Assembly: GCF_004353825.1 (NCBI RefSeq)
Contig: NZ_SMNA01000013.1
Location: 1 to 64,000 of the forward strand
Direction: 5' to 3'
DNA: 64,000 nt
DNA from: Occultella glacieicola
GTDB taxonomy: Bacteria > Actinomycetota > Actinomycetes > Actinomycetales > Beutenbergiaceae
Shown: piece after piece, positions 35,994 through 53,687 of the stretch
How the letters are laid out: each line of letters opens with the position of its first letter
Numbering within the stretch: the first letter of the stretch is position 1
The notes under the pieces: generated by a model
The model's database searches: none
What the model was told of the DNA's origin: nothing
Seen by the model: the letters and a program-made list of their open reading frames with translations, nothing else
Position numbers and translations under genes: made by a program

Positions 35994-36000
35994 TCGGTTC

Positions 36001-37963: not shown

Positions 37964-38625
37964 TGCTGCGGCTGCTCGGCTGGCACACGAGGGCCGGCGA
38001 GGTCGGCCTGCGGCTGCTCCTGCTGAACCTGCTGTGGCTGCTGTACACCCTGCGCGGCGGGATCGTCCTCGGGCTGTTCCCGGCGACTGCCGCCGTGCAT
38101 GCGGTGCTGCGCCGCGACGCGATGGGGCACGACGGCGGAACTCGCCCCGGTCTGCGTGCGGAGTTCGCAGCGGCGTGGCGCAGCGAACTGCGGTCGGCGA
38201 ACGTGATCGGTTACCTGCTCGCCGTGGCCTGGGCGGTACTGCTCACCGAGCATCGCGTCCTGACCGACGGCGGTGCGCAGGGTCTGGCGGCCGGCGTCGC
38301 GGCCGTGCTCTGGTTCGCCGCCGCGTTCCTGTTCGTGGTCAGCGCCGTCGTCTGGATGCTGGCGGTCCATTTCGACGAGGGACCACTGGTCACCCTGCGG
38401 CGCGCCGTGCTCCTCGCGCTGGCCCGGCCGCTGACCGCGCTCGGGGCCGCGGCGATCCTCGCGGTCACGCTGTGCGTCTACTACGTGGTGCCGGGCCTGA
38501 TCCCGGTGTTCGGCGTGGCCGTGCCGGCCATGCTGACCTGCGCCCAACTGTGGCGCAGCGGCGTCCTGCCAGGCCCCGCGCGCCCGGCCCGGCCGGCGCG
38601 GGTGCCGGCACCGTTGAGTCACTGA
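37963..38625 (+). CDS. DUF624 (YesL-like) membrane protein, second copy
   Basis: A protein of 220 residues with about five membrane helices and the YesL-type features GGIVLGLFPATAAVHAVLRRD and FAAAWRSELRSANVIGYLL. It is exactly as long as the copy at 13473 and belongs to the same family; here it follows the permeases instead of preceding the binding protein. The start overlaps the permease stop (TGATG). The function is unknown; association with LplBC transporters suggests a role in their assembly or regulation. Confidence 0.85.
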   Translation: MLRLLGWHTRAGEVGLRLLLLNLLWLLYTLRGGIVLGLFPATAAVHAVLRRDAMGHDGGTRPGLRAEFAAAWRSELRSANVIGYLLAVAWAVLLTEHRVLTDGGAQGLAAGVAAVLWFAAAFLFVVSAVVWMLAVHFDEGPLVTLRRAVLLALARPLTALGAAAILAVTLCVYYVVPGLIPVFGVAVPAMLTCAQLWRSGVLPGPARPARPARVPAPLSH

Positions 38626-38637
38626 GAGGATCCACCG

Positions 38638-40452
38638 TTGGCACAGGTCACCCACGGACCGAACGGCCGCGCCCGGGCGCCGCAGGTGTTGCGGTCGCTC
38701 GGGCACGAGGGGCGGGTCCGGATCGACGGCGGCCCGCTCGCCGAGCGCATCGCCGACGCCACGGCGACCTACCTCGCCATGGAACCGGACGACGTCCTGC
38801 ACGGCTTCCGGGTGGCGGCCGGGCTGGTGTCGCCGGGCACGCCGATGACCGGCTGGTCCTCGGTGACGTCGGAGCCGACATTCGGGCAGTGGGTCAGCGG
38901 GCTCGCCCGCCTGGGCGCCACGACGGGCAACCGGGCGGCGCGCGAGCGGGCGGTCGAGCTGGTCGACGGTTTCGCGGCCACGGTCGGCGTCGATGGCGAC
39001 ACCCGGATGTCCCTCTACGGCTACGAGAAGCTCCTGTGCGGGCTCGTCGATACGTACACGTTCGCCGGGCACGAGGGCGCGCTGACGCTGCTGGAACGGA
39101 CCGTGCCGTGGGCCGAGCGGACGTTCGACCGGGCCCGCCCGACGCCGTCGGCCCACAACTTCGCGGGCGGCCACATCGGGCCGACCGGTCATGCCCGCAC
39201 CATCGAGTGGTACACCCTCGCCGAGAACCTCCATCGCGCCTGGCTGGCCGGCGCCGGCGACCGGGTCGGGGACTTCGCGCGGCTGTGGCACTACGACGCC
39301 TACTGGGACCGCTTCCTGGAGGAACCGGGACCGGGGCGGCCGTGGCCCGTGCCCACCTGGCTGCACGCCTACTCGCACCTGAACACCTTCGCCTCGGCCG
39401 CCGCCGCGTACGAGGCGACCGGACAGCACCGGTACCTGCAGATCGTGCGCAACGCGCACACCTACTTCACCGCGACCCAGACCTACGCGACCGGCGGCTT
39501 CGGTCCCAGCGAGTTCACGCTTCCGGAGGACGGCTCGCTCGGGCGCAGCCTGGAGTGGCGCACCGACACCGCCGAGATCGTCTGCGGGTCGTGGGCGGCC
39601 CTGAAGGTCTGCGCGGCCCTGCTGCGGTTCACGGGGGAGGCCCGCTACGGCGACTGGGTGGAGCAGCTCCTGTACTCCGGCGTGGGCGCGGTGACGCCGG
39701 TCCGGCCCGGCGGTCGGAGCCCGTACTACCAGGACTACCGGCTCGGGACCGCCACCAAGCTGCCCCACTGGGACGACTGGCCGTGCTGCTCCGGTACCTA
39801 CCTCCAGTGCGTGGCGGACCTGCCCGACTTCGTCTACCACGCGAGCGAGGACGGCCTGGCCGTGCTGCTCTACGTGCCGTCGTCCGTCTCGTGGGAGCAC
39901 GACGGCCGCGAGTTCGGCCTCACCCAGGAGACCGACTTCCCACGGACCGACACCGCACGGCTGGTCCTGCGCGGCGCGGGACGACTCGCGCTGCGGCTGC
40001 GCGTCCCCTCCTGGAGCAACGGGTTCCGGACGGCGGTGAACGGCGAGACTGTGCCGACTGTGCCGACTGTGGCGACGCCGGGCCAGTGGCTGGTCATCGA
40101 CCGGGACTGGGCCGACGGCGACGTCGTCGAGGTCACCCTCGGCGCCGGCCTGCGGGTGCTCCCGGTCGACGACCGGCACCCGAACCGGGTCGCCTTCGCG
40201 CACGGCCCGGTGGTGCTGGCGCAGAAGGCGGACTGGACCATGCCGATCTCCCTGCCGACGCCGTGGGAGATGGTCGACCTCGACGAGGCGCTCGTGCGGC
40301 AGGACGCCGGGAACGGCGACGGTCCGCGCTACCGGCCGGTCGGCGTCGGCACCGCGCGGCTGCCGCTCGGCGACCTGCGTCCCCTGTCCGAGATCGCCGA
40401 GCGCACGCCGCACCGGGTGTACTTCGACCTCGACGACCCGCGGATCGTCTGA
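38638..40452 (+). CDS. GH127-like (DUF1680 family) glycosidase
   Basis: A protein of 604 residues, distantly related to the first GH127. It retains the double cysteine Cys383-Cys384 in WPCCSGTYLQ and an upstream Glu313/Cys316 in TAEIVCGS, but the Glu and Cys are two residues apart instead of one, so metal binding may differ. No signal peptide. The probable role is cleavage of another beta-arabinofuranosyl or related linkage in the imported oligosaccharide. The start is TTG 38638 behind GAGAGGAT. A short in-frame repeat codes for VPTVPT near residue 475. Last gene of the operon. Confidence 0.8.
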   Translation: MAQVTHGPNGRARAPQVLRSLGHEGRVRIDGGPLAERIADATATYLAMEPDDVLHGFRVAAGLVSPGTPMTGWSSVTSEPTFGQWVSGLARLGATTGNRAARERAVELVDGFAATVGVDGDTRMSLYGYEKLLCGLVDTYTFAGHEGALTLLERTVPWAERTFDRARPTPSAHNFAGGHIGPTGHARTIEWYTLAENLHRAWLAGAGDRVGDFARLWHYDAYWDRFLEEPGPGRPWPVPTWLHAYSHLNTFASAAAAYEATGQHRYLQIVRNAHTYFTATQTYATGGFGPSEFTLPEDGSLGRSLEWRTDTAEIVCGSWAALKVCAALLRFTGEARYGDWVEQLLYSGVGAVTPVRPGGRSPYYQDYRLGTATKLPHWDDWPCCSGTYLQCVADLPDFVYHASEDGLAVLLYVPSSVSWEHDGREFGLTQETDFPRTDTARLVLRGAGRLALRLRVPSWSNGFRTAVNGETVPTVPTVATPGQWLVIDRDWADGDVVEVTLGAGLRVLPVDDRHPNRVAFAHGPVVLAQKADWTMPISLPTPWEMVDLDEALVRQDAGNGDGPRYRPVGVGTARLPLGDLRPLSEIAERTPHRVYFDLDDPRIV

Positions 40453-40524
40453 ACGCACGCCCTCCGGACCCCGGTCCACCCGGTGCGGCCCGGCGGGCAA
40501 CCGCGCGAACCTCGACGTAACTGA

Positions 40525-40554
40525 TTGACCCTAGTCTGACGATCTGTGTAGCGT
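40525..40554 (+). promoter_or_regulatory. Possible promoter of the muropeptide-rescue operon
   Basis: TTGACC (40525-40530) and TAGCGT (40549-40554) with an 18-base spacer, about 35 bases before the NamZ start. ACTGAT (40520-40525) and ATCAGT (40561-40566) form a spaced inverted repeat flanking the promoter and may bind the cluster's RpiR-type regulator. Confidence 0.45.
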
Positions 40555-40590
40555 ACTTACATCAGTCGATGACGAGTGGGGGAACGGCCA

Positions 40591-41766
40591 GTGGTCCAGG
40601 TGGACGATGTGGCACGGGTCCGAACGGGCCTGAGCAGAGCGATCGCCGAGCCCGGCCTGATCGGCGACGGCCCCACCGGACTCTGCGCGAACTACACGTC
40701 CGTGACGGCGGACCTGCAGCGCGGTGTCGACGCGCTCCTGGCTGCGGGCGTGCCGCTGACCACGATCTTCACGCCCGAGCACGGCTACTGGGGGGCGGTA
40801 CAGGCGGGTGAGAGCGAGGGCGACGGCGTCGACGTCGCCACCGGGCTGCCGGTCCTGGACACCTACCGCTCGGACGGCGAGCGGCTGGACGCGCTGCTGC
40901 GCGGGTCCGGCGTGGCTCAGATCCTCGTGGACTTCCAGGACATCGGTGTTCGGTTCTACACCTACACCTGGACGCTCTTCGACCTGCTCTGTTCCGCGGC
41001 GCGCACCGGGATCCGCGTCGTGGTGCTCGACCGGCCGAACCCGCTGGGCGGCCTGGTCCGCACCGGGCCCGGCCTCGCGGCGTCCTGCTCGAGCTTCGTG
41101 GGTCGGGTCTCGATCCCGCTCCAGCACGGACTCACCCTCGGCGAGCTCGCGCGCTGGTTCAACGCCGTCCACGTGCCCGAAGCCGTCGGTGGCCCCGCCG
41201 ACCTCGAGGTGATCGAACTCGCCGGCTGGGGCCGGCAGCGCCAGGATCCGGGGCGCGCCTGGGTGATGCCCTCACCGAACATGCCCACGCTCGACACCGC
41301 CACCGTGTTCCCCGCGATCGGCCTGCTGGAGGGAACCGTGCTCTCGGAGGGCCGCGGTACGACGAAGCCGTTCGAGTTGTTCGGTGCCTCGTGGACCGAC
41401 GGACGCCTGGCGGCTGCCCTGACCGAGCGGGACCTGCCCGGCGTCGCCTTCCGCGAGGCCGTCTTCCGCCCCACGTTCAGCAAATGGCACGGCGACGTGG
41501 TGCACGGCGCCCAACTGCACCTGAGTGACCTCGGCGCATTCGACCCGATCGCCACCGGCGTGGCCGTGCTCCAGACGGTCACGGAACTGCACCCCGGGGA
41601 ATCGATCTGGCTGCCTGCGCACCCGGGGCGCCCGCCGTTCATCGATCTCCTCTGGGGCTCGCCGGCCCTGCGTGAGGGCGTCGACCGCGGCGCGGACACG
41701 GACGCGATCCTCGACGACGGCCCGCCGACGCCCACCGTGCCGGCGGACGCGCTCCTCTACACCTGA
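40591..41766 (+). CDS. namZ: Exo-beta-N-acetylmuramidase, DUF1343/GH171 (NamZ-like)
   Basis: A protein of 391 residues. It matches DUF1343, whose Bacillus subtilis member YbbC/NamZ releases MurNAc from the non-reducing end of peptidoglycan fragments: CANYTSVTADLQRGVDALL, TIFTPEHGYWGAVQAGE, LVDFQDIGVRFYTYTWTL, LDRPNPLGG and the C-terminal end all fit. Unlike secreted NamZ it has no signal peptide, implying it works on imported muropeptides. GTG 40591 follows a GGGGGAA site; an in-frame GTG at 40576 is less likely. It is the first gene of an operon with an acetyl-metabolising pair and an ABC importer. Confidence 0.88.
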   Translation: MVQVDDVARVRTGLSRAIAEPGLIGDGPTGLCANYTSVTADLQRGVDALLAAGVPLTTIFTPEHGYWGAVQAGESEGDGVDVATGLPVLDTYRSDGERLDALLRGSGVAQILVDFQDIGVRFYTYTWTLFDLLCSAARTGIRVVVLDRPNPLGGLVRTGPGLAASCSSFVGRVSIPLQHGLTLGELARWFNAVHVPEAVGGPADLEVIELAGWGRQRQDPGRAWVMPSPNMPTLDTATVFPAIGLLEGTVLSEGRGTTKPFELFGASWTDGRLAAALTERDLPGVAFREAVFRPTFSKWHGDVVHGAQLHLSDLGAFDPIATGVAVLQTVTELHPGESIWLPAHPGRPPFIDLLWGSPALREGVDRGADTDAILDDGPPTPTVPADALLYT

Positions 41767-41806
41767 CCGGCACGTGCCAAGACCCGAACGAACGAAGGAC
41801 GAACCG

Positions 41807-42502
41807 TTGTCTCCACAGACGATCATGGCCGTGGGCGGTCACATCGGCGACATGGACCTGGCCGCCGGGCCACTGCTCGCGCAGAACGTGCTCGACGGCG
41901 GACGTTCGGTGCTCGTGGCGCTCACCCCGGGCGAGCGCGGGCACCCCAGGATGTCTGCCGATGACTATCGCGACCAGAAGATCGCCGAGGCGCAGGCGTT
42001 CGCGGCCGGGATCGGGGCGGAGGTGGTGGTCTTCGACGACATCTCCGACGGGTTCCTGACCACCGACGACCTGGTCGCCGAACGTCTCGCGGACCTGATC
42101 CGTGAGGTCAGGCCCGCCACGTTGCTCGCCCACTGGCGGCGCAGCATCCACACCGACCACGAGAACGCGTCGATCCTCGCCGAGCGGGCCCGCTTCCTCG
42201 CCGGCCTGCCCGGCTGGAAGGACGAGACCGAGCGCCACGGCGTCGGGCGCCTGCTGTTCACGGAGAACTGGGAAGACGCGACCGGTTTCGACGCCGACCT
42301 GTTCATCGAGATCTCGGCCGAGGCGCACCGGCGCTGGACCGAGGCGATCGGCGGCCAGGCGTTCGCACGCGGCGAGACCTACGGGTTCCGCTACATCGAC
42401 TTCTACACGGCCCAGATGGTCACGCGGGGCTGCCTTGCCGGCGTGCCCCACGCCGTCGCCCTCTCCTCAGGGCCGACTCGGGGGATGTCACCCCTGGACT
42501 GA
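41807..42502 (+). CDS. PIG-L family de-N-acetylase-like protein
   Basis: A protein of 231 residues. PIG-L enzymes use zinc to remove acetyl groups from GlcNAc-type sugars. The N-terminal metal motif reads GGHIGDMDLAAG, a variant of the usual HPDDE, and the second one SIHTDHENAS supplies more ligands; both look intact enough for metal binding. In this cluster it may deacetylate an amino sugar released from peptidoglycan. TTG 41807 follows GAAGGA by 7 bases. It is cytoplasmic. Confidence 0.82.
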   Translation: MSPQTIMAVGGHIGDMDLAAGPLLAQNVLDGGRSVLVALTPGERGHPRMSADDYRDQKIAEAQAFAAGIGAEVVVFDDISDGFLTTDDLVAERLADLIREVRPATLLAHWRRSIHTDHENASILAERARFLAGLPGWKDETERHGVGRLLFTENWEDATGFDADLFIEISAEAHRRWTEAIGGQAFARGETYGFRYIDFYTAQMVTRGCLAGVPHAVALSSGPTRGMSPLD

Positions 42503-42583
42503 GTCGCCCGCCGACGTCGGGAGGCGCCGGCCGCCCTGGCACCGTCAATCAGCACCATCGAACAGATCGGAAAGGTCATTCCC

Positions 42584-43540
42584 TTGCAGGTCTCCTATCG
42601 TGCGCACCGGCCCGGCGATGCCGCCCGGCTCGCCGAGCTCACCGCCCTCGCGATGCCACGCGATGCGGTCAGTGAGGACTGGTTCACCGACACCGTCCTG
42701 CTCGACCCGAACTTCGACCCGGACGGGCTGATCGTCGCCGTGGACCCGGAGACGGGACGCCCGCACGGTTTCGTCTACGCGGTGCGCGCCGGCCGGGGGA
42801 TAGGCCCCGATCCCGACGGCGGCTGGATCACGATCGGCTGCGTGCACCCCGAAGCCCGCGGCCAGGGCATCGGGACCGAACTGGTGCGGCGGGCCGGCGC
42901 GTTCCTCGCCGGCAAGGGTGCGCACTGGGTCAACTTCGCGGCCTACCCGCTCGCCTACTTCGTGCCCGGCCTGGACTCGGCGGCCTATCCGGACGCCGCC
43001 CGGCTGTTCGAGCGGGCCGGCTTCCGGCGGCTGTACACGGCCGCGGCGATGAGCCTCGATCTGGCCGAATACGCGACCCCCGCCGAGGTGCGGGACCTGC
43101 GTGCCGCCCGGGTCGCGGAGGGCTATTCTTTCGCGACCGCCGGGCCGGACGATCTGCCCGAGGTGATCTCCTTCGCCGCGCAGCGGCTGGCACCGGACTG
43201 GGGTGAGGCGGTCCGGGACTCGGTCCTGCAGCACGGCCGGATCGACCGGGTGCTCCTGGCGCGCCACCCCGAGGGCTCCGTCGTCGGGTTCGCCACCTAC
43301 GGCGCCTACCGCGGCCTGCGGGAACGGTTCGGGCCCTACGGCGTGGACGAGACCTGCCGCGGCACCGGTCTGGGCAAGATCCTGCTGCACGAGACCCTCA
43401 CCCGGATGCGCGCCGAAGGTGCCCAGAGCGCCTGGTTCCTGTGGACCGGTGAGAACTCACCCGCCGGGCACCTCTACCTCCGGTCCGGCTTCCGGGTCAC
43501 CCGGCGCTTCGACGTGCTCCGCGCCGACCTGGACCACTGA
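42584..43540 (+). CDS. Tandem-domain GNAT N-acetyltransferase
   Basis: A protein of 318 residues with two GNAT folds. The first (residues 1-165) has the acetyl-CoA loop HPEARGQGIGTELVRRAG. The second (about 180-318) has DETCRGTGLGKILLHETL and a final YLRSGFRVTRRF. The substrate is not readable from sequence; next to a PIG-L deacetylase it might re-acetylate a sugar amine or modify a peptide amine. The Bacillus subtilis ybb cluster also contains a GNAT protein (YbbJ), to my knowledge. TTG 42584 lies 9 bases after GGAAAGG. Confidence 0.85.
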   Translation: MQVSYRAHRPGDAARLAELTALAMPRDAVSEDWFTDTVLLDPNFDPDGLIVAVDPETGRPHGFVYAVRAGRGIGPDPDGGWITIGCVHPEARGQGIGTELVRRAGAFLAGKGAHWVNFAAYPLAYFVPGLDSAAYPDAARLFERAGFRRLYTAAAMSLDLAEYATPAEVRDLRAARVAEGYSFATAGPDDLPEVISFAAQRLAPDWGEAVRDSVLQHGRIDRVLLARHPEGSVVGFATYGAYRGLRERFGPYGVDETCRGTGLGKILLHETLTRMRAEGAQSAWFLWTGENSPAGHLYLRSGFRVTRRFDVLRADLDH

Positions 43541-43582
43541 GCCCCGTCCATCCCCTGCTCCACCCCATCGAAAGGTCACCAC

Positions 43583-45244
43583 ATGAGAACCCCGAGGTTC
43601 ATCCGACTGGCCGCCGTGCTGACGGCCGGTGCCCTGGCATTGTCGGCCTGTACCGGCGGCGACGGCGACGGTGACTCCGGCGCCGACGCCGGCGCCGTCC
43701 AGCCGCTCACGATCCACGCCAACACGGCGAACACCTACCAGCAGAACTTCAACCCGTTCTCCCCGACCGCGCTGCAGGGCACCAAGGGCATGCTCTACGA
43801 GCCGCTCATGGTCGCCACCGCGATGGTCCCCGGCGAGACCCAGCCCTGGCTCGCCGAGTCGATGGAGTTCAACGAGGACGGCACGGTCGTCACGTTCGTG
43901 CTCCAAGAGGGCGTCACCTGGTCCGACGGCGAGGCGTTCGACGCCGACGACGTCGCCTTCACCTTCAACCTGATGCGCGACAACCCGGCGGCGAACGCCG
44001 GGGCGCTCGACCTCGCCGACGCGGTCGCCGTGGACGCTCGCACCGTGGAGGTGACCTTCAACAGCGTCGCGTTCGCATTCCAGTCCTCCATCGCGAACAC
44101 CGTCATGGTCCCCGAGCACGTGTTCTCGGGTGTCGACCCGATCGAGTTCCAGAACGAGGAACCGGTGGCCACCGGGCCGTTCGTGCTCGAACAGTTCGGG
44201 CAGCAGCTCTACACACTGGGTGCGAACGAGGCCTACTGGAACGCCGACGAGGTCCAGGTCGAGCAGGTCCGGTACCCGGCGTCCACCGACCAGACGTTCA
44301 ACAGCTCACTGCAGGCCGGCGAGTTCGACTGGTCCGGCGGGTTCGTCGCCAACATCGACCAGATCTACATCTCGGGCGACCCGGACCACCGGTCCTACTG
44401 GTACCCCGGGGACGGGCTCGTCAACCTGCTCGTGAACACCCAGACCGCCCCGTTCGACGACGTCGAGGTTCGCCGGGCGCTCAGCGCCGGCATCGACCGC
44501 AACCAGCTGTCCGAGGTCGCCATGCAGGGGTACACCCCGCCGGCCCACCCCACCGGGCTGCCGTTGCCGGCCTACGAGTCGGTGATGAGCGAGGAGTACG
44601 CCGACGCGGAGTTCAGCTATGACGTCGACGAGGCGAACGCGATCCTCGACGAGGCCGGCTACCCGCTGGGCAGCGACGGGGTGCGCACCACCCCGGACGG
44701 TGAGCAGATGTCCTACGCGCTGCAGATCCCGTCGAGCTATGTGGACTGGGTGACGATAAGCGGACTGCTCCAGGAGCAACTGGCGCAGATCGGCGTGGTC
44801 GTCGAGCCCCAGGGGGTCTCGTTCGAGGCCTGGCTCGAGGCCCGCAACTCCGGCAACTACCAGATGACCATCGCCTCGGTGTCGATGGGGCTCACGCCGT
44901 ACACCCTGTTCCGTTCCATGATGAGCTCGGAGTACCGGACCGGTCCGGGCGAGACCGTCGTCTCGAACTACAACCGTTTCTACGACGAGGACGCGGACGC
45001 CCTGTTGGAGTCCTTCGCGAGCACGATCGACCCGGCGCAGCAGCAGGCGGCCTTCGACGGGCTCGAGCGGATCATGGTCGAGGAGCTCCCGGTGATCGCG
45101 ATGCTCCAGTCCCCGAACTGGTTCCAGTACAACACCGTGCGTTGGGAGGGCTTCCCGACCGAGGAGGACCCCTACGCCCTGGGTGCGCCGTACCAGTTCC
45201 CCGACAACCTGCTCGTGGTCACGAACCTGACGCCCGCAGGCTGA
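43583..45244 (+). CDS. Family 5 extracellular solute-binding lipoprotein (peptide/oligosaccharide ABC importer)
   Basis: A protein of 553 residues. The signal peptide ends in lipobox ALSAC with a Gly/Asp linker after it. The mature protein follows the DppA/OppA pattern: FNPFSPTALQGTKGMLYEPLM, TWSDGEAFDADDVAFTFNLM, DVEVRRALSAGIDRNQL. The family binds peptides, but some members take oligosaccharides or murein peptides. With NamZ, NagZ and MurQ as neighbours, a muropeptide or GlcNAc-MurNAc ligand is the best inference. GAAAGGTCACC precedes ATG 43583. Confidence 0.92.
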   Translation: MRTPRFIRLAAVLTAGALALSACTGGDGDGDSGADAGAVQPLTIHANTANTYQQNFNPFSPTALQGTKGMLYEPLMVATAMVPGETQPWLAESMEFNEDGTVVTFVLQEGVTWSDGEAFDADDVAFTFNLMRDNPAANAGALDLADAVAVDARTVEVTFNSVAFAFQSSIANTVMVPEHVFSGVDPIEFQNEEPVATGPFVLEQFGQQLYTLGANEAYWNADEVQVEQVRYPASTDQTFNSSLQAGEFDWSGGFVANIDQIYISGDPDHRSYWYPGDGLVNLLVNTQTAPFDDVEVRRALSAGIDRNQLSEVAMQGYTPPAHPTGLPLPAYESVMSEEYADAEFSYDVDEANAILDEAGYPLGSDGVRTTPDGEQMSYALQIPSSYVDWVTISGLLQEQLAQIGVVVEPQGVSFEAWLEARNSGNYQMTIASVSMGLTPYTLFRSMMSSEYRTGPGETVVSNYNRFYDEDADALLESFASTIDPAQQQAAFDGLERIMVEELPVIAMLQSPNWFQYNTVRWEGFPTEEDPYALGAPYQFPDNLLVVTNLTPAG

Positions 45245-45250
45245 CCGCGC

Positions 45251-45287
45251 CGGGCACCGGGACGGGCGGCGCCCGCCCCGGTGCCCG
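45251..45287 (+). terminator. Hairpin between binding-protein and permease genes (third system)
   Basis: CGGGCACCGGG pairs with CCCGGTGCCCG and, after one mismatch, CGGGC with GCCCG around a GGC loop. The hairpin begins 6 bases after the binding-protein stop. It is the third case in this window of a strong hairpin at that position of a transporter operon. Confidence 0.72.
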
Positions 45288-45320
45288 CGTGGCCGCATCC
45301 GACCCGAGAGGTTGTCCCGC

Positions 45321-46298
45321 GTGAAGTACCTCCTGCGCAAGGTGATGTTGTACGTGTTCATCGCCTGGGCTGCGCTCACCATGAACTTCCTGATCCCACG
45401 GCTGATGCCGGGCGATCCCGTCGCGCTGCTCGTCGAACGGCTCCAGGGCCGGATCGACCCGGCCGCCATGGAGGCGATCGCGGAGAGCTACGGACTCACC
45501 GACGCGCCGTTGCTGCAGCAGTACCGGGACTATCTCGCGTCGCTCGCGGCGGGTGACCTGGGCCTCTCGATCGGCTTCTTCCCGGTCCCGGTCTCCGAGA
45601 TCGTGATGGGGGCGTTGCCGTGGACGATCGGCCTGGTCGGGATCACCACCGTGATCAGCTTCCTGGTCGGCACCGGCCTCGGTGTGGTGCTCGCCTGGCG
45701 CCGCGGCTCCTGGACCGACCACCTGCTGCCGGCCCTCACCTTCCTGAACGCCGTCCCGTACTTCTGGATGGCGCTCATCCTGGTCCTGGTCCTCTCGGTG
45801 AACCTGGGCTGGTTCCCCGTCTCGCAGGCCTACGAGCCCGGCCTGACACCGGGGTGGGACTGGGAGTTCATCTCCTCGGTGCTCTACCACGCCTTCCTGC
45901 CGGCGGTCACGATCATCCTGGCGTCCTTCGCCGGGTGGGTGCTGAGCATGCGGAACATGACGGTGACCGTCCTGGGTGAGGACTACGTGACGATGGCGGA
46001 GGCGAAGGGGCTGCCGAAGCGGATGGTGCTGGTCAACTACGCGGCCCGGAACGCGATCCTGCCCTCGGTGACCGGGTTCGCGCTGTCCCTCGGCGCCGTC
46101 GTCGGTGGATCCATGCTGACCGAGGTCATCTTCAACTACCCGGGGGTGGGGTACACCCTGTTCGAGGCGGTCCAGAACCAGGACTTCCCGCTGATGCAGG
46201 GACTCTTCCTGATCATCTCGCTGGCGGTGATCGTCGCGAACCTCGTGGCGGACGTCATCTACGTGTTCCTCGACCCCCGCACCCGCCAGGAAGGCTGA
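45321..46298 (+). CDS. Peptide-type ABC transporter permease (DppB-like)
   Basis: A protein of 325 residues with the DppB layout: an N-terminal helix, the periplasmic part (RLMPGDPVALLVERLQGRI), then five helices and the loop EDYVTMAEAKGLPKRMVLVNYAARNAILPSVTGF that docks the ATPase. It pairs with the DppC half of the next gene. GTG 45321 was chosen because GAGAGG lies 9 bases upstream; an in-frame TTG at 45312 abuts it. Confidence 0.92.
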   Translation: MKYLLRKVMLYVFIAWAALTMNFLIPRLMPGDPVALLVERLQGRIDPAAMEAIAESYGLTDAPLLQQYRDYLASLAAGDLGLSIGFFPVPVSEIVMGALPWTIGLVGITTVISFLVGTGLGVVLAWRRGSWTDHLLPALTFLNAVPYFWMALILVLVLSVNLGWFPVSQAYEPGLTPGWDWEFISSVLYHAFLPAVTIILASFAGWVLSMRNMTVTVLGEDYVTMAEAKGLPKRMVLVNYAARNAILPSVTGFALSLGAVVGGSMLTEVIFNYPGVGYTLFEAVQNQDFPLMQGLFLIISLAVIVANLVADVIYVFLDPRTRQEG

Positions 46299-46300
46299 CC

Positions 46301-48190
46301 ATGAGACTCTCACGATTCCTGCCGACCTCCGGGAAGGTCCGCGCGGGGCTGATCATCGCCGTCTTCTTCGTGCTGCTGGCCGTCTTCGGGCCGCTCCTGA
46401 CGAGCTACTCGCCGCAGGCCAGCGGTACCGATCTGCTCCAGCCGCCGTCCGGCACGCACTGGCTCGGCACCACCCAGACCGGTCAGGACGTCTTCGCCCA
46501 GTTCGTGTACGGGGCCCGGATCTCGCTCGGGGTCGGCCTGGTCGCTGGGATCCTGTCGCAGATCGTCTCGGTCCTGGTCGGCGTGATCGGGGGCTACTTC
46601 CGCGGGCTCTCGGACGACCTGCTCTACATCCTGACGGCCGTGTTCCTGGTGGTTCCCGGGATGCCGCTGCTGATCGTGCTCACCGGCTACCTGCCCTCCC
46701 GGGGGATGGTCTCGGTCGCGTTCGTCATCGCGATCACGTCCTGGGCCGGTTCGGCCCGGGTGCTGCGGGCCCAGACCATGTCGCTGCGACGACGTGAGTT
46801 CGTCGAGGCGGCCCGCGCCACGGGCGAGTCGCGCACCCGGATCGTGTTCTCCGAGATCATGCCGAACGCGTTGCCGCTGATCGCCTCCGGATTCCTGTTC
46901 TCGGTGATCGGGGCGGTGCTGGCCGAGGCCGGGTTGTCCTTCCTCGGCCTCGGCTCGCTGACGACCACGAGCTGGGGCTCGATGCTCTACTTCGCCCAGA
47001 GCGCGCAGGCGTTCCTGTACGGCGCCTGGTGGTGGTTCGTGCCCCCGGGCCTGGCGATCGCCGTTCTCGGGGCCGGTCTGGCCCTGATCAACTTCGGGAT
47101 CGACGAGTACTCCAACCCGCGGCTGCGCACCGGTAGGAGCCGGGCCCGGGCCGTGCGGTCCCGTGGGCCGCACGCGGCCGCCCTCAGCACCGCCGGCGCC
47201 TCGGCCGCCGCCTCCGGTGCCGAGACGCCCGGCGTGGCGACGATCCTGCACGACGACGCCCCGGACGAGACGGTCGGGTCCGTGCCGGCCGGCGCCGCAC
47301 CGGCGCCACCCCAGATCCGAGAGCTCGACGTGCCCGGCAAGCCGATCATCGAGGTCCGTCACCTCAAGGTCGACTATCCGGGCGCGGACCAGGTGGTGCA
47401 CGCCGTCGACGACGTCTCGATCACCCTGCACCGCGGCGAGCTCCTCGGCCTCGCGGGGGAGTCCGGCAGCGGCAAGTCCACGCTCACGAACGCGATCACC
47501 CGGCTGCTCCGCAACCCGGCTCAGGTGACCGGGGGATCGATCACCTACCACCGGTCCGCGCGTGGGCGCCCGAGCGGGCCGACGACCGGCGGCTCGGAAG
47601 CCGAGGTCGAAGCCATCGACCTGCTCGGGCTCTCCACGGAGGAGCTACGCGCCTACCGCTGGGACGAGCTCGCCATCGTGTTCCAGAGTGCGATGAACGC
47701 GCTGAACGCCGTGACCAGTGTCGGGGCCCAGTTCGACGACGTGCTCCGCGTGCACCGGCCCACCATGCCCGCCCGCGAGCGGGAGGCGCTGGCCCGGACC
47801 ATGCTCGAGAAGGTCGGGATCGACCCCGGCCGGGTGTCGGCCTACCCGCACGAGCTCTCCGGCGGGATGAAGCAGCGGGTCGCCATCGCCATCGCCCTCG
47901 TGCTCGAGCCGGACGTGATCGTCATGGACGAGCCGACCACGGCGCTCGACCTGCTGATCCAGCGCGAGGTGCTCGACCAGGTCATGGCCCTGCGGGACGA
48001 GTACGGCTTCGCGATCATCTTCACCACGCACGACCTGTCCCTGCTGCTGGAGGTCTCGGACAGCATCGCCGTGATGCAGCGTGGCCGGCTGGTCGAGTAC
48101 GGTCCGGCGCTCGAGGTGTACGCCGAACCTCGCCACCCCTACACGCGGGCGCTGCTCGCCTCACTCGCAGACATGGGAGCACTGGTATGA
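46301..48190 (+). CDS. Fused ABC permease/ATPase (DppC-DppD)
   Basis: A protein of 629 residues. Residues 1-290 are a DppC-type permease (ATGESRTRIVFSEIMPNALPLI is the ATPase-contact loop). A linker of about 50 Ala/Pro-rich residues follows. Residues about 345-629 are a DppD ATPase with Walker A GESGSGKST, Q-loop IVFQSAM, signature LSGGMKQRV, Walker B VIVMDEPTTAL and the H-loop TTHDL. Such fusions occur in actinobacteria. ATG 46301 follows the DppB stop by two bases and the stop overlaps the next ATPase (ATGA). Confidence 0.93.
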   Translation: MRLSRFLPTSGKVRAGLIIAVFFVLLAVFGPLLTSYSPQASGTDLLQPPSGTHWLGTTQTGQDVFAQFVYGARISLGVGLVAGILSQIVSVLVGVIGGYFRGLSDDLLYILTAVFLVVPGMPLLIVLTGYLPSRGMVSVAFVIAITSWAGSARVLRAQTMSLRRREFVEAARATGESRTRIVFSEIMPNALPLIASGFLFSVIGAVLAEAGLSFLGLGSLTTTSWGSMLYFAQSAQAFLYGAWWWFVPPGLAIAVLGAGLALINFGIDEYSNPRLRTGRSRARAVRSRGPHAAALSTAGASAAASGAETPGVATILHDDAPDETVGSVPAGAAPAPPQIRELDVPGKPIIEVRHLKVDYPGADQVVHAVDDVSITLHRGELLGLAGESGSGKSTLTNAITRLLRNPAQVTGGSITYHRSARGRPSGPTTGGSEAEVEAIDLLGLSTEELRAYRWDELAIVFQSAMNALNAVTSVGAQFDDVLRVHRPTMPAREREALARTMLEKVGIDPGRVSAYPHELSGGMKQRVAIAIALVLEPDVIVMDEPTTALDLLIQREVLDQVMALRDEYGFAIIFTTHDLSLLLEVSDSIAVMQRGRLVEYGPALEVYAEPRHPYTRALLASLADMGALV

Positions 48191-49038
48191 GTTCCGACGT
48201 GACGGATCCAGTCGGCCCCGGAAACGGGCGCGTGGTCCTCGAAGCCCGGAACCTGGTCAAGGACTTCCGCACGAACAAGCGGGCCGGGGTGTTCGGCCGG
48301 GAGTACTTCCGGGCCGTCGACGACGTCTCCCTGGAACTGCGTGCGGGCCAGGTGACCGCGCTCGTGGGCCAGAGCGGCTCCGGCAAGAGCACGGTCGGCC
48401 GCCTGCTCGCGCAACTGGTGCCGCTGACGTCCGGGGAGATCCTGCTGAACGGTGCGCCGGTGGCGGCCACGCGCGGGCGTGCCTTCATCCGCTACACCGG
48501 CACCGTGCAGATGACCCTGCAGGATCCGTTCGCCTCACTGAATCCCCTGCACCGGGTCAGTTACACACTGGGCCGGGCGCTGCGCATCCACGGCGGTCCG
48601 ATGAGTGCCGACGACGTGACCGAGCGCAGCCTCGCGCTGCTCCGGAAGGTGGAGCTGGGTCCGGCCGAGCTGTACCTGCACCGGTTCCCGCACGAACTCT
48701 CGGGCGGGGAACGGCAGCGGATCTCGTTCGCACGTGCGCTCGCCGCCGAACCGAAGGTGCTGCTCGCGGATGAACCGGTCTCGATGCTCGACGTGACGAT
48801 CCGCAAGGGGATGCTCGACCTCCTGGACCAGTTGCGCCGGACCGAGGAACTCGCCGTCCTGTACATCACCCACGACCTGGGTTCCGCCCGTGCCTACTCC
48901 GCCGAGACCCTGGTCATGTACCACGGCAAGGTCGTGGAGCGGGGGCCGAGCGACCAGGTGATCCACGACCCCGCCCACGAGTACACGCGGCGGTTGCTCG
49001 CCGCCGCGCCGAACCCCCGACGGCGTCTGGCCGGGTGA
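48187..49038 (+). CDS. Peptide-type ABC transporter ATPase (DppF-like)
   Basis: A protein of 283 residues with Walker A GQSGSGKST, Q-loop MTLQDPFASLNP, signature LSGGERQRI, Walker B VLLADEPVSML and switch His in YITHDL. It lacks an obvious C-terminal OppD/F extension except the end YTRRLLAAAPNPRRR. With the DppD half of the preceding protein it forms the ATPase pair, so this transporter is complete, unlike the two LplBC cassettes. The start overlaps the preceding stop by 4 bases. Confidence 0.93.
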   Translation: MSSDVTDPVGPGNGRVVLEARNLVKDFRTNKRAGVFGREYFRAVDDVSLELRAGQVTALVGQSGSGKSTVGRLLAQLVPLTSGEILLNGAPVAATRGRAFIRYTGTVQMTLQDPFASLNPLHRVSYTLGRALRIHGGPMSADDVTERSLALLRKVELGPAELYLHRFPHELSGGERQRISFARALAAEPKVLLADEPVSMLDVTIRKGMLDLLDQLRRTEELAVLYITHDLGSARAYSAETLVMYHGKVVERGPSDQVIHDPAHEYTRRLLAAAPNPRRRLAG

Positions 49039-49060
49039 GGCCGCCGGTGGCGGTCTCACC
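49034..49060. terminator. Bidirectional terminator between dppF-like and nagZ
   Basis: GGTGAGGCCGCC (49034-49045) and GGCGGTCTCACC (49049-49060) form a 12-bp stem with one G-U pair and a GGT loop. The two converging genes are only 17 bases apart, and both stop codons fall in the stem, so one hairpin serves both strands. Confidence 0.7.
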
Positions 49061-50564
49061 ACAGCAGGAGATCGGCCACGGCGGCCGCGCTCACCGCGCT
49101 CGAGCCGTACGTCGTGACCAGACGCGGCACGTCCACGTCGAGGTCGCCGGGCCAACCCACACGCACCACCACGGTGTCCCGGTGTCGGGCCATGACCTCG
49201 GCGAGCGCATCGCGCTCGGCCGCGGCGAGGTGCGGCTGGTCGACGACCAGCACGACCTCGCCGCTGCGCGGGCCGGGCAGCAGGTCGGCGATGTCGCCGG
49301 CGTCGAACCGGCGGTGGACGATCGGCGTGCGAGCGGCGAGCGCCACGCCGACCAGGTCCGCCTCACGCCCGGCCGCGCGATTGCGCAGCACCCGGGCGTC
49401 GATCACGGTGACCGGTTCGTCGCCGCGCAGACGGACGTCCCCGCGGACGTCGCAGGCACCGGCGGCCGCCCGCGTCGCAGCGGCGGTCGGGATGCGCGAC
49501 GCCGACCCATCGGGGACCCGGGCGCCGCGCTGGGCGGTGACCCAGGCGCGCAGGGACGCGATCCGCTCGACGGCTTCCTCGAGCCGCTCGGTCGGCAGCG
49601 TCCCGGAGCGGAGGGCGTCGACGACTGCGGTGTGCACCCGGACGTAGGCCGACTCGTCCGGGTGCGGGTCACCTGGCGTGCGGGGATCCGCCCCCTGGTT
49701 GCCGAGGCAGACGAGGTCCACGCCGGCGGCGAGGGCGGCGACGGCGCCCGGCCCGAGACCGAGGGTGCCCGCAATGGCCTCCATCTCCACGGCGTCGGAG
49801 ACGATCAGGCCGTCGAAGCCCATCCCGCGCAGGATCGACAGCGCCCGTGGGTTCACCGTCGCCGGTTCCGGACCGAGCACGGGCACGATGATGTGAGCCG
49901 TCAGCACGGCCCGGACCCCGGCCTCGATCGCGGCCCGGAACGGAGCGAGGTGGATCTGCTCGAGTTCCTCGGCGCTCACCTCCATCCGGCTCACGCCGAG
50001 GTGGGAGTCGGTGGTGGTATCGCCATGGCCGGGGAAGTGCTTCGCGCACGCCGCGGTGCCGGCGCGCTGCAGTCCTCGCACGTAGGCGGCCGTGTGCCGC
50101 GCCACCAGTCCGGGATCGGCCCCGAAGGAACGACTGCCGATCACCGGGTTCGCGGGGTTGTTGTTCACGTCGGCGACGGGGGCCAGGTCGAGGGCGATGC
50201 CGTGGCGGGCCAGTTCGCCGCCGATCTGCTCGGCAACGGCCTCCGTGTCCGACTCGACGTCGTGGCGGCCCAGCGCGGCGTGGCCAGGGCTCGGCGAGCC
50301 GTCCCGGGCGTGCAGGCGGGTCACCAGGCCACCCTCCTCGTCCACTCCGACGAGACCGTCCGTGGGACCCAGTTCGCCGACGAGACGTGCCACCTGGCCG
50401 GGGTCGTCGGGCTCGACGTTGTGGGCGAACAGCAGGGCGCCCGGCGTTCCGGCGGCGCGGGCCCGCAACAACCAGTCGGGTGCCCGGGTGCCCGCGAATC
50501 CCGGCCAGAGCACGGCGTGGGCGAGGGACTCGAGCGAGCGGTCGATGCCGCGGTGTTCCGCCAT
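49056..50564 (-). CDS. nagZ: GH3 beta-N-acetylglucosaminidase (NagZ-like)
   Basis: A protein of 502 residues. The GH3 barrel has the NagZ motif CAKHFPGHGDTTTDSHLG, whose His/Asp pair acts as acid/base, and the nucleophile Asp257 in IVSDAVEMEAI. A C-terminal domain of about 160 residues follows. It removes GlcNAc from muropeptides. No signal peptide, so cytoplasmic. ATG 50564 is preferred over the TTG at 50582. It converges on the transporter operon and diverges from murQ with 115 bases between starts. Confidence 0.92.
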   Translation of the reverse strand: MAEHRGIDRSLESLAHAVLWPGFAGTRAPDWLLRARAAGTPGALLFAHNVEPDDPGQVARLVGELGPTDGLVGVDEEGGLVTRLHARDGSPSPGHAALGRHDVESDTEAVAEQIGGELARHGIALDLAPVADVNNNPANPVIGSRSFGADPGLVARHTAAYVRGLQRAGTAACAKHFPGHGDTTTDSHLGVSRMEVSAEELEQIHLAPFRAAIEAGVRAVLTAHIIVPVLGPEPATVNPRALSILRGMGFDGLIVSDAVEMEAIAGTLGLGPGAVAALAAGVDLVCLGNQGADPRTPGDPHPDESAYVRVHTAVVDALRSGTLPTERLEEAVERIASLRAWVTAQRGARVPDGSASRIPTAAATRAAAGACDVRGDVRLRGDEPVTVIDARVLRNRAAGREADLVGVALAARTPIVHRRFDAGDIADLLPGPRSGEVVLVVDQPHLAAAERDALAEVMARHRDTVVVRVGWPGDLDVDVPRLVTTYGSSAVSAAAVADLLLW

Positions 50565-50679
50565 GACCTCATCGTGCGTCAATCATTGGCGGACAGCAAG
50601 GAATTCGCGTCAATAGTTTTCTCCGACGTGATGTTGCTGGTTTACTTGGCATGGTCGATTCAGGAAGGCGAGGTACGCG

Positions 50680-51606
50680 GTGGCTGAGTCCCAACCCGTC
50701 CCGGGCGACGGGACCGGCGCACTCGAGACCGAGCGGATCGACGCGAGGTATCGGCGACTGGACGTGGTCCCGACCCTGGACGCGCTCCGCGCGATGAACG
50801 AGGCGGAGGCCGGGGTGCCGGCGGCGGTGCGAGCCGTGCTGCCCCAGATTGCGAGGGTCGTCGACGCGGTCGCGGCCCGGATGGAGGCCGGAGGGCGGCT
50901 GATCTACCTCGGAGCCGGCACCTCGGGTCGGTTGGGGGTGGTGGACGCCTCGGAGTGTCCCCCGACGTTCCACACCGACCCGGACCAGGTCGTGGGGGTG
51001 ATCGCCGGAGGACGTGGTGCCATGTTCGAGTCCGTGGAGGGGGCTGAGGACTCCGCCGACCTAGGTGCCGCCGACATCGGCCGCCTCGGGGTCGCCGCCG
51101 TCGACACGGTCGTCGGGATCGCCGCGAGCGGCCGCACCCCGTTCGTGCTCGGCGGGATCCGGGCCGCGCGCGCCGCCGGTGCCCTGACCGTGGGCCTGGC
51201 CTGCAACACCGGCTCCGCGCTCGGGGCTGCCGTGGACCTGCCGATCGAGGTCGAGGTGGGGCCCGAGGTCATCGCCGGCTCGACCCGCCTGAAGGCCGGC
51301 TCCGCGACGAAGCAGGTGCTGAACATGATCTCGACCGGCGTGATGATCAGGCTCGGGAAGACCTACGGGAACCTGATGGTCGATCTGTCCGTCAGCAACG
51401 TCAAGCTTCGGGAGCGGGCCGAGCGCCTGGTCGCGACCATCACGGGTGCGGACCCCCAGGCCGCGGCACGGGCCCTGACGGAGTCCGGTCTTCGGGTCCC
51501 GGTGGCCGCGATCATGCTGGCCCGCGGGGTGGATCGGGACGCCGCCGAGCGGCTCCTCGCCGGGGCCGGTGGCCGGCTCGGCGGCGTTCTGGACGCTCAG
51601 GCCTGA
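50680..51606 (+). CDS. murQ: N-acetylmuramic acid 6-phosphate etherase
   Basis: A protein of 308 residues that splits MurNAc 6-phosphate into GlcNAc 6-phosphate and D-lactate. It has the SIS-type sugar-phosphate site GAGTSGRLGVVDASECPPTFH with catalytic Glu92, GIAASGRTPFVLG and KAGSATKQVLNMISTGVMIRLGKTYGNLMVDL, all diagnostic. Its substrate is phosphorylated, yet no MurNAc kinase or PTS is encoded in this window. The GTG start 50680 has GCGAGG 8 bases upstream. Its last 10 bases overlap the end of the S12 hydrolase gene on the other strand. Confidence 0.95.
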   Translation: MAESQPVPGDGTGALETERIDARYRRLDVVPTLDALRAMNEAEAGVPAAVRAVLPQIARVVDAVAARMEAGGRLIYLGAGTSGRLGVVDASECPPTFHTDPDQVVGVIAGGRGAMFESVEGAEDSADLGAADIGRLGVAAVDTVVGIAASGRTPFVLGGIRAARAAGALTVGLACNTGSALGAAVDLPIEVEVGPEVIAGSTRLKAGSATKQVLNMISTGVMIRLGKTYGNLMVDLSVSNVKLRERAERLVATITGADPQAAARALTESGLRVPVAAIMLARGVDRDAAERLLAGAGGRLGGVLDAQA

Positions 51607-52820
51607 GCGAGGTGGCGGCGGGCCAGGCCGGTCACGGCGCGTCGTAGCGGACCGGCGTCGAACGCGCTCCGGTCCGGCTGGACACGGTTGGTCAGCAGTA
51701 CCACCGTCAGGTCCGCCTCGGTGTCGATCACCAGCGAGGTGCCGGTGAACCCGGTGTGGCCGATCACCGCCGGATCTGCGGTACCCATGAACGTGGCGTC
51801 GCCGAGGCGCATGCCGAGCGCCTGCCCGTACCCCACCCGGTCCCGCTCGGCCGCGGGGAGGACGTCCCGGCGGAGCAGTGCCAGGGAGTCCTCGCGCAGC
51901 AGTCCCGGTCGGTCCGGACGCAGGGCGGCCGCGAACCGGATCAGATCCGGGGCGGTGCCGAACGCGCCGGCGTTCCCGGAGCCGCCAAGACTCCAGGCCG
52001 CCTCGTCGTGGACGACGCCCCGCACGAGCCCGCGGTCCGGGGCGGACTGGTACTCGGTCGGCACCACCGACTCGCCGGCACCGCTGGGGTCGTAGCCGGT
52101 GCTCGACATCGCCAGCGGCCCGGTGACGGTGTCCCGCAGGAGCGTGGGTAGGTCGCGCGCGGTCAGGTGTTCGAGCAGGAGACCGAGCACCATGAAGCCC
52201 ACGCACGAGTAGGCGTGGCTCGCACCCGGTTCGGACCGCAGCCCGGTGCCCAGCACCAGCCGGGCGCGGTCCTCCCGGGTGCCGGGGACCTCCCACAGCC
52301 GCAGCACCGGCGGCAGGCCGGAGGTGTGGGTGAGCAGGTGCCGGGCGGTCACCTGGTGGTGGGCGCGGTCGACGGCGAACTCGGGGAGGGCGTCGGTCAC
52401 CGGGCGGTCGAGGTCGAGGACGCCCGCGTCCACCTGGACCAGTGCGGTGACGGTGGTCAGGATCTTCGTCAGCGACGCGAGGTCGAACACCGGCGCCAAC
52501 GGCAGCGCGCGCCGGTCCGCGGCCGGGAGCAGGGCGCCGTCGGCCGCGAAGAGGGTGGCGTACCCGGCCTGCGCGCGGGCGACCACCCGCCCGCGGTGGG
52601 CGATCACGGCATCCGCTCCTGCGGTGCCGGGGACGGGGTCGCCGGCTCCGACCGGGGCCGGGCCGGAGGCGGCGCTACGGGTGCTCGCGTCGAGCAGGCC
52701 CTGCAGGGCGGCCGTCAGCTCCTGGTCGAGCCCGGTTCCGGCCGTGGACGTGGGCTCGTGGTCGTTCCGGCCGGTCACGGGTCTCGCCCCGGTGCCCTCG
52801 GTCGTCGGCTGGTCGGTCAT
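51597..52820 (-). CDS. Serine hydrolase of the beta-lactamase (S12) family, possible muropeptide amidase
   Basis: A protein of 407 residues. The SxxK motif is Ser116-Leu-Thr-Lys119 in DLASLTKIL, a Tyr motif follows in HAYSCVGFMVLG, and HTGFTG supplies the third block, so the penicillin-recognising active site looks complete. The first 45 residues are polar and disordered and no signal peptide is seen. In Bacillus subtilis the related YbbE/AmiE of the same cluster cleaves MurNAc from L-Ala; that role fits here but is inferred. A true beta-lactamase or esterase is the alternative. It starts 6 bases after the RpiR stop. Confidence 0.84.
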   Translation of the reverse strand: MTDQPTTEGTGARPVTGRNDHEPTSTAGTGLDQELTAALQGLLDASTRSAASGPAPVGAGDPVPGTAGADAVIAHRGRVVARAQAGYATLFAADGALLPAADRRALPLAPVFDLASLTKILTTVTALVQVDAGVLDLDRPVTDALPEFAVDRAHHQVTARHLLTHTSGLPPVLRLWEVPGTREDRARLVLGTGLRSEPGASHAYSCVGFMVLGLLLEHLTARDLPTLLRDTVTGPLAMSSTGYDPSGAGESVVPTEYQSAPDRGLVRGVVHDEAAWSLGGSGNAGAFGTAPDLIRFAAALRPDRPGLLREDSLALLRRDVLPAAERDRVGYGQALGMRLGDATFMGTADPAVIGHTGFTGTSLVIDTEADLTVVLLTNRVQPDRSAFDAGPLRRAVTGLARRHLAQA

Positions 52821-52826
52821 TCGTCG

Positions 52827-53687
52827 TCAGTTGTCCCGGAACAGGGCGACCGCGTCATGGGTGTCGCGCAGGGCGTCGACCGTCTCGGCCATCCGGCGCT
52901 GCGCGACCGCCACGAAGATACAGTCCACGATCAGCAGCTGGGCCGTCCGCGAGGCCATCGACCCGGACCGCAACGGTGACTCTCGGACCGTGGTGCGCAG
53001 CACCAGGTCCGCGGCCCGGGCCACGGGTGAGCCGGCCACGTTCGTGATCGCCACCGCGGTCACCCCGCGCTCGCGGGCGGACTCCAGGAACCGCACCACC
53101 TCGGCCGTCGTGCCCCGGTGCGAGAAGCCGACCGCCACGTCACCCGCGCCCATCAGGCCGAGCGAGGTGACGGCGTCGTGCCCGTCCGGGAAGGAGTAGG
53201 CGACCCGACCGATCCGGAACAGTTTGCGATGCAGGTCCGCCGCGCTCCAGCCGCTTCCGCTGACGCCGTAGACGGAGATCCGCGCGGCGGAGTCGATCGC
53301 GTCCACGACCCGGCCGAGCTCGGCCACGTCCAGGTTGTTGATGGTCTCCTCGATGCACAGGTTCTCGGTGAACCCGATACTCGCCACCACCTCCTCGAGC
53401 GTGCTGCCCGCCGAGATGTCCGAACCGTACGCGGCCACCGGGCCTCGTCGTGCGCCCTCGCGGCCCACCTCGGTGGCGAGTGCGATCCGGAGCTGGACGT
53501 ATCCGGCCAGGCCCAGCGTCCGGCAGAACCTGACGATCGTGGTCTCCGACGTCGAGCACTTGCGCGCCAATTCGGAGATCGTCTCCTCCAGCACCAGCCG
53601 CGGGTCGGCCAGGATCGCGTCCGCCACCCGGCGCATCGAGGGCGCCAGGGTGTCACGCTTCGCCTGGATCTGGGACTGGATGCTCAC
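52827..53687 (-). CDS. RpiR/MurR-family transcriptional regulator
   Basis: A protein of 286 residues: an N-terminal RpiR helix-turn-helix (residues about 1-78, [21 protein letters not shown]) and a SIS domain that binds phosphosugars (residues about 115-255, [35 protein letters not shown]). In B. subtilis and E. coli, MurR of this family senses MurNAc 6-phosphate and represses murQ. GTG 53687 has GAAGGG upstream. It forms a two-gene unit with the S12 hydrolase. The effector assignment rests on context. Confidence 0.88.

Follow-up and report, generated by a model that had tools for sequence, protein, structure and literature searches.

A probable MurR-type regulon for peptidoglycan-glycan salvage by ABC import in Occultella glacieicola

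Known salvage systems and the Occultella cluster

The murQRP-amiE-nagZ-ybbC(namZ) set of Bacillus subtilis and the probable muramic-acid salvage cluster of the soil actinobacterium Occultella glacieicola—located in a stretch of 64,000 nucleotides, here called the window (contig NZ_SMNA01000013.1, positions 1 to 64,000)—have MurQ, a MurR/RpiR regulator, NagZ, NamZ, and an amidase (a presumed one in Occultella) in common. The gene ybbC is the one that we take to encode NamZ, and NamZ is secreted in Bacillus. AmiE and NagZ of B. subtilis are extracellular, and N-acetylmuramic acid (MurNAc) enters by the MurP phosphotransferase system (PTS; PMC5061867). In Occultella, by contrast, the hydrolases lack signal peptides, uptake would be by an ABC importer, the genome has no PF02378 EIIC, and the kinase is encoded in trans. 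Escherichia coli likewise has cytoplasmic NagZ, AnmK, and MurQ; it takes up anhydromuropeptides by the permease AmpG (PMC5061867), whereas Occultella has the ABC importer and an additional NamZ, predicted to be cytoplasmic. In Agrobacterium, YejBEF, an ABC transporter of the peptide type, works with its own binding protein YepA and likewise feeds cytoplasmic NagZ and an amidase, and MurNAc recycling is attributed to AnmK, MupP, AmgK, and MurU, not to MurQ (PMC9790009). Streptomyces coelicolor (SCO4305-4308) likewise carries MurQ and a MurR-like regulator without a MurP orthologue (PMC5061867), and Mycobacterium smegmatis is said to have AnmK, MurK, MurQ, and also NagE (PMC13041923); a text search of the M. 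smegmatis paper gave no match to NamZ. For Agrobacterium recycling and both actinobacteria, the likeness is one of description.

The Occultella cluster is probably a MurR-type regulon for peptidoglycan-glycan salvage in an actinobacterium without a MurP-type PTS, with ABC import, cytoplasmic dismantling, and a kinase encoded in trans. In the proposed pathway, an oligosaccharide-branch family-5 lipoprotein would capture GlcNAc-MurNAc (or MurNAc-GlcNAc) disaccharides, short chains, or muropeptides, and the ABC permeases and ATPases would import them unphosphorylated, the presumed direction of flow being inward. An S12 hydrolase would strip any peptide in the cytoplasm, and NagZ and NamZ would alternately clip GlcNAc and MurNAc from the nonreducing end. 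A kinase encoded elsewhere would form MurNAc 6-phosphate: AnmK in the case of 1,6-anhydro-MurNAc and probably a BadF-family kinase in the case of plain MurNAc. MurQ would split MurNAc 6-phosphate into GlcNAc 6-phosphate and D-lactate, and RpiR would repress the cluster via a pair of 17-bp inverted repeats. The proposal builds on what can be read from the DNA: the gene families; the lack of signal-like stretches; an AnmK in the genome and no PF02378 EIIC; the kinship of the binding protein; and a conserved operator.

The cluster is real and conserved. An earlier note on the window had named NamZ, GNAT, NagZ, MurQ, S12, RpiR, and a complete importer, all of which are confirmed by Pfam and NCBIfam; its gene list omitted the PIG-L gene, and its left edge at 40525 lies inside an operator, ahead of an in-frame stop, the NamZ frame opening at 40576. 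The order on the + strand is NamZ, a PIG-L-family protein, a two-domain GNAT, the family-5 lipoprotein, a permease, a permease–ATPase fusion, and an ATPase, followed by NagZ (−), MurQ (+), the S12 hydrolase (−), and RpiR (−). The genome (5.34 Mb, 23 contigs, completeness score 100 percent) shares the whole cluster with three further Occultella genomes at 81-95 percent identity. The MurNAc 6-phosphate etherase MurQ (50680..51606, +) matches TIGR00274 with 332 bits over a cut-off of 302. The RpiR/MurR-family repressor (52827..53687, −) consists of an HTH_6 and a SIS domain and scores under the cut-offs of the MurR/RpiR models, the MurR equivalog model included.

Hydrolases, importer, and operator

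NamZ (40591..41766, +) belongs to the exo-beta-N-acetylmuramidase family, which we take to be GH171, and exceeds the Pfam cut-offs of both NamZ_N (4e-60) and NamZ_C (3e-38); it matches PDB 4k05 at 1e-48. Its longest frame begins at 40576, and 40591 is the start favored by relatives. Exo-muramidase activity is predicted from family membership, and the protein is the single NamZ match of the genome. NagZ (49056..50564, −; longest frame from 50582) is a GH3 beta-N-acetylglucosaminidase by its Glyco_hydro_3 match (7e-63) and carries KHFPGHGD and SDAVEM, presumably NagZ motifs; against NF003740, it reaches 4e-47 and 161 bits, below the cut-off of 207. The S12 hydrolase (51597..52820, −) is PBP4B-like, with a Pfam Beta-lactamase match of 5e-53, an SLTK motif, and 81 bits against NF002968 (PBP4B), whose cut-off is 385. 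Because NagZ and S12 fall under the cut-offs of their nearest named models, their names rest on family and motifs; S12 is a presumed muramyl-peptide amidase that would remove the peptide from muropeptides.

The lack of signal peptides on these three proteins, proposed earlier, agrees with the highest 15-residue hydropathy within the first 60 residues—0.75 for NamZ, 0.87 for NagZ, and 0.43 for S12 versus 2.05 for the lipoprotein, as judged by a hydropathy count and not by SignalP. A secretion signal missed through wrong starts had been named as a possible objection; the longest open frames of all three add no upstream residues. With neither an upstream extension nor high hydropathy in any of the three, a secreted NamZ, NagZ, or amidase of the B. 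subtilis type is not found in the cluster, and a cytoplasmic location is supported for these predicted enzymes, which leave no room for a signal peptide. Among NamZ/NagZ paralogues outside the cluster, 12 of 14 measured reach at least 1.39 (called or longest frame), the exceptions being one NagZ (genome G020) and one NamZ (G016). The split is not clean, however: cluster NamZ of G008, G010, G021, and G017 and cluster NagZ of G021 and G017 reach 1.33-1.49, in stretches that resemble the start or interior of the enzyme domain. A separate NagZ-like and NamZ-like pair with signal-like N-termini occurs in an Occultella relative (L042, G010:C1:2548728-2551938).

The importer consists of two permease and two ATPase domains: a DppB/OppB-like permease (45312..46298, +; BPD_transp_1), a DppC-DppD-like protein of 629 residues in which one permease and one ATPase are joined (46301..48190, +; BPD_transp_1 and ABC_tran), and a DppF-like ATPase (48187..49038, +; ABC_tran). 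The lipoprotein (43583..45244, +; SBP_bac_5) is a family-5 solute-binding protein of the oligosaccharide type. The earlier description as a Dpp-type importer thus stands in that the family-5 system is complete but not for the binding protein, which is nearest to oligosaccharide binders and not to DppA. Its closest solved structures are Vibrio chitooligosaccharide binders (2.9e-74 to 2.6e-71), identified through PMC8449061 and the name of 1zty; a mannoside binder (2.1e-42), OppA (6e-17), DppA (~1e-14), and the murein-peptide binder MppA (4.7e-13) match more weakly. A profile of nine relatives agrees with the Vibrio binders at 4.6e-99. VhCBP and VcCBP of Vibrio belong to the same family 5 and are similar over the full length; Arg436 and Phe437 are described there as chitin-specific, and two aromatic residues of the chitooligosaccharide-binder group (cluster C-VI) are called completely conserved (PMC8449061). 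In a residue mapping from the printed alignment (chain index = paper number + 2), the key Asp365 corresponds to Asp388 of the window protein and is invariant in nine sequences. Arg436/Phe437 are replaced with Val460/Ser461 near an alignment gap, and Trp513 is likewise not kept. Since the closest relatives are oligosaccharide binders and not DppA, a glycan or disaccharide is favored over a plain peptide, which also agrees with the CUT1 sugar importer that other clusters have in place of the family-5 one. The protein would bind oligosaccharides but is probably not tuned to chitobiose; given the neighboring genes, its most plausible ligand is a muramic disaccharide or muropeptide. The cluster of G001 carries two family-5 binding proteins in tandem (L036, 11061-14508).

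The operator is a 17-bp inverted repeat with a consensus near ACGTCAATnATTGACGT. It occurs once before namZ (40515..40531; position weight matrix (PWM) score 23.2; exact match to the strict pattern GTCAATNANTNRC) and twice, 31 bp apart, in the nagZ/murQ divergent promoter (50576..50592, score 20.9, exact pattern match; 50607..50623, score 16.2). The strict pattern has two matches in the whole genome, both at the cluster promoters, and none for its reversed control; it was derived from sites of this cluster and relatives, so that weaker sites elsewhere are possible. Operators were recognized from a perfect copy in G001—an exact search for palindromes with 6-bp arms missed most of them—and the PWM was built from Occultella, Ruania, and G001 sites. 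Pairs at 31 bp also occur in clusters that contributed no sites to the PWM, namely those of Isoptericola, Leifsonia, Microbacterium, Acrocarpospora (two), and Rugosimonospora. The spacing is found in 10 of 18 site pairs from 35 actinobacterial loci (near-copies L102 and L103 included), and five Markov replicates gave one pair in total and none at 31 bp. Single low-threshold matches are no more frequent than expected by chance (6 in the window versus 6.7 expected), so only high scores and pairs are informative. Paired inverted repeats are also the target of E. coli MurR, and this, together with the shared company, suggests RpiR as the putative protein that binds the operator.

PIG-L-like protein, GNAT, and distribution

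The family comparison covers 24 genomes, 8 with the cluster and 16 without, and the surroundings of NamZ were read at 18 of 21 places, the other three being the window's own and a further place each in G008 and G009. Scanning with the PIG-L protein yielded 39 loci from actinobacteria and a few Bacillota and Chloroflexota, some from family genomes already compared and several ending at contig ends. Profile searches find GNAT in 36, NamZ in 23, and MurQ in 23 of them. A CUT1 binding protein lies in the stretch at 24 loci, a family-5 protein of the window's type at 5, and neither at 10. Of the 23 MurQ loci, 18 also encode a kinase in the stretch: BadF in 13, AnmK in 2 (one broken), and both in 3. 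ABC importer, MurQ, and kinase occur together in many actinobacteria, mostly with CUT1 importers, so that the absence of MurP is not unusual in this group.

The GNAT was found in 15 of 394 genomes of the class, the own genome included. Fifteen stretches were read from the other 14 genomes, five of them from genomes already among the 39 loci. PIG-L lies beside GNAT in 10, a family-5 or CUT1 importer is present in 8, and MurQ with S12 in 3, whose family-5 proteins are 25-26 percent like that of the window. Within the same family of organisms, G014:C2 (L180:5168-15556) carries RpiR, a family-5 binding protein (26 percent like that of the window), permeases, MurQ, AnmK, S12, and an ATPase in one row, standing alone. 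Among the MurQ loci of the 39, S12 occurs in 3/3 with the window-type family-5 importer, 0/18 with CUT1, and 1/2 without a visible importer, and in four more stretches that combine MurQ with a distant family-5 protein. S12 as a marker of peptide-bearing cargo is a hint only, the lineages being few and PBP4B of E. coli adjoining MurQ-MurP (PMC5061867).

The PIG-L-family protein (41810..42502, +, start probably 41810-41825; Pfam PIG-L 2e-16) is 91 percent identical in Occultella gossypii and 89 percent in Occultella aeris. It precedes the two-domain GNAT acetyltransferase (42584..43540, +), which matches Pfam Acetyltransf_7/_1 in two stretches. Deacetylases of the PIG-L family have a general-base Asp in an HPDD-type motif. 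In the window protein, H11, D14, and the last His of HTDH are present—presumably the metal-site residues—and HIGDMD replaces HPDD, with Gly at the place of the base Asp. HIGDM is found in 40 of 40 rows, of which 38 match a search pattern that contains it, L115 and L117 having been found by another pattern. HxDH is kept in 38 of 40 rows (L131 and L132, without the first His, also lack the other cluster genes), and HxGD occurs in all 10 PIG-L proteins found via GNAT, 5 of them from new genomes. The nearest solved structures are the hydratase GalB (5cgz, 1e-10), with Ala at that place, and the deacetylase BshB (6p2t, 3e-10), with Asp. The protein could be a deacetylase that uses another base, a GNAT-paired N-glycolyl-muramic acid deacylase, or a hydratase. 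In a doubtful reading, it is not a deacetylase and instead acts on muramic acid or its lactyl ether as a GalB-like metal-dependent hydratase or lyase; the kept metal-site residues suggest this, as does the replacement of the base Asp by Gly here and by Ala in GalB. Among the matches listed in a search of titles and abstracts, there was no actinobacterial cluster of NamZ or MurQ with ABC importer and kinase and none joining PIG-L with MurNAc.

Kinases, PTS, and rival explanations

Within the window, whole-genome profile searches give no match to AnmK, BadF, or PF02378 EIIC, in line with the earlier statement that neither kinase nor PTS is encoded there. PF02378, to which MurP presumably belongs, was the only EIIC family searched; it has no match in the own genome, whereas control genomes were positive in 7 of 14. 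A MurP elsewhere in the genome, raised earlier as an objection, is thereby set aside, and ABC import in place of a PTS is supported. A PTS enzyme I above cut-off lies at C16:176089-177543 of the own genome, which lacks a PF02378 EIIC.

The missing kinase is largely an effect of viewing 64 kb only. The genome features one AnmK match on a different contig (G000:C16:188554-189693, E 2.9e-92), with 311 bits against PF03702 and 453.6 bits against the AnmK equivalog model NF007146 (cut-off 440); among solved structures, levoglucosan kinase is equally close. Two BadF/BadG proteins, BadF1 on contig C6 and BadF2 on C19, exceed the Pfam cut-off. The kinase search recommended earlier thus succeeded for AnmK and BadF, but these BadF proteins are far below the cut-off of the NagK model. 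AnmK lies in an operon (L002:4053-11813 = C16:185052-192812) of a CUT1 binding protein, two permeases, AnmK, MurQ2 (304.5 bits, cut-off 302), and RpiR2, with a GHL10 protein beside it, so that the organism has two MurQ-RpiR loci with different importers. The counterpart operons of G003 and G023 carry NagZ between permeases and AnmK, and G023 also a BadF gene; since the own operon lacks NagZ, the NagZ of the window may serve both loci. By its model match, the own AnmK is the predicted anhydro-MurNAc kinase, and an unrecognized kinase inside the cluster is not needed for this sugar. The earlier demand for a separate or unrecognized kinase is borne out in that a kinase is encoded elsewhere, in a second MurNAc operon, but not in that an unrecognized one is needed for anhydro-MurNAc. 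For plain MurNAc, the two own BadF proteins are candidates.

Six of the 8 genomes that carry the cluster encode full-length AnmK, as do 3 of the 16 that lack it (G003, G014, G023), counts that are not independent because the genomes are related; in a seventh cluster genome, G015, AnmK is in pieces. AnmK lies inside the cluster next to NagZ in 2 of 8, the Ruania relatives G017 (intact) and G015 (broken, L034 ~4051-4900). The BadF kinases of actinobacterial clusters group closely in 11 of 12 cases, joined by one genome copy from G002, and those of Bacillota and Chloroflexota stand apart, so that the cluster kinases do not form one group. The own BadF1 is not supported as an orthologue of the cluster kinases, which it resembles at 22-35 percent over alignments of at least 130 residues in the best 25 rows.

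Several observations weigh against the proposed pathway. On the importer side, some solved structures related to the binding protein (3e-51 to 9e-47) carry the depositors' name 'oligopeptide-binding', although they are presumably sugar binders. The conserved Trp363 and Trp513 are Tyr386 and Tyr537 in the window protein (the former position is Trp in Ruania), and a structure model of the protein was discarded at a mean pLDDT of 42.5. In G001, MurQ is absent from the stretch read, which does contain NamZ, the importer, and NagZ. On the kinase side, AnmK is specific for 1,6-anhydro-MurNAc and NamZ would release plain MurNAc, for which another kinase is probably required. In the complete relative G021, NamZ, importer, MurQ, S12, and RpiR are present, but AnmK is missing apart from one weak partial match below cut-off, so that AnmK cannot be the general answer. 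The AnmK locus has its own RpiR and lacks the operator, for which reason regulation of cluster and AnmK operon by one repressor was rejected, and the own BadF proteins fall outside the groups of the other clusters' kinases, the label test being uninformative and the deep forks open.

That the importer is a true Dpp/Opp system for plain di- or oligopeptides and a mere neighbor of the muramic-acid genes is highly improbable. The best models of its permeases and ATPases are Opp/Dpp/Nik, all below their cut-offs, and the depositors' name mentioned above fits; the binding protein, however, is far nearer to chitooligosaccharide and mannoside binders than to DppA, MppA, or OppA. In 19 of 39 loci (L113-L130, L133), CUT1 genes lie next to GNAT or PIG-L, and the family-5 importer stays with muramic-acid genes in Occultella and Ruania and with NamZ, PIG-L, and GNAT in Isoptericola. 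A chitobiose or chitooligosaccharide importer in a cluster for mixed amino-sugar use is rather unlikely as well: the nearest solved relatives do bind (GlcNAc)2, but the exchanges at Arg436/Phe437 and Trp513 and the adjoining MurQ and NamZ, which are specific for muramic acid, speak for other cargo. The kinase that feeds the cluster could instead be a MurK-like BadF/BadG protein, with AnmK serving its own operon only, a possibility to be taken seriously though short of even. BadF accompanies MurQ in the stretch at 16 of 23 related loci, G021 without AnmK keeps a BadF gene of the type common in the family, the own genome has its two BadF genes, and NamZ should yield plain MurNAc. Against it stand the position of the own BadF proteins outside the cluster-kinase groups, their low NagK scores, and the 15-16 kb around their genes, which give no match to MurQ, NamZ, NagZ, AnmK, GNAT, PIG-L, or RpiR profiles, as well as the AnmK inside the Ruania clusters and beside family-5 importer and MurQ in G014.

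Two neighbors flank the cluster. An FMN-dependent dehydrogenase (PF01070, 53900-55234) adjoins it and is kept in Occultella, D-lactate being the MurQ product; the clusters of L115, L123, L125, and L128 have FAD-linked oxidases nearby, presumably of the D-lactate/glycolate dehydrogenase type. A separate sugar ABC importer lies upstream (34362-40452), with proteins that we take to be DUF624-like and GH127-like.

The uptake and phosphorylation of MurNAc in MurP-less actinobacteria were left open when MurQ-dependent recycling was shown in S. coelicolor (PMC5061867). For one branch, the proposed regulon would give a testable answer: two kinds of ABC importer, BadF or AnmK kinases encoded in the same stretch as MurQ, and a common operator by which the regulon can be recognized. 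NamZ would have a cytoplasmic branch as well, and two conserved proteins beside muramic-acid genes stand out, the PIG-L-like protein and the GNAT. If the former were a lyase or hydratase, it would represent new chemistry in the breakdown of muramic acid.

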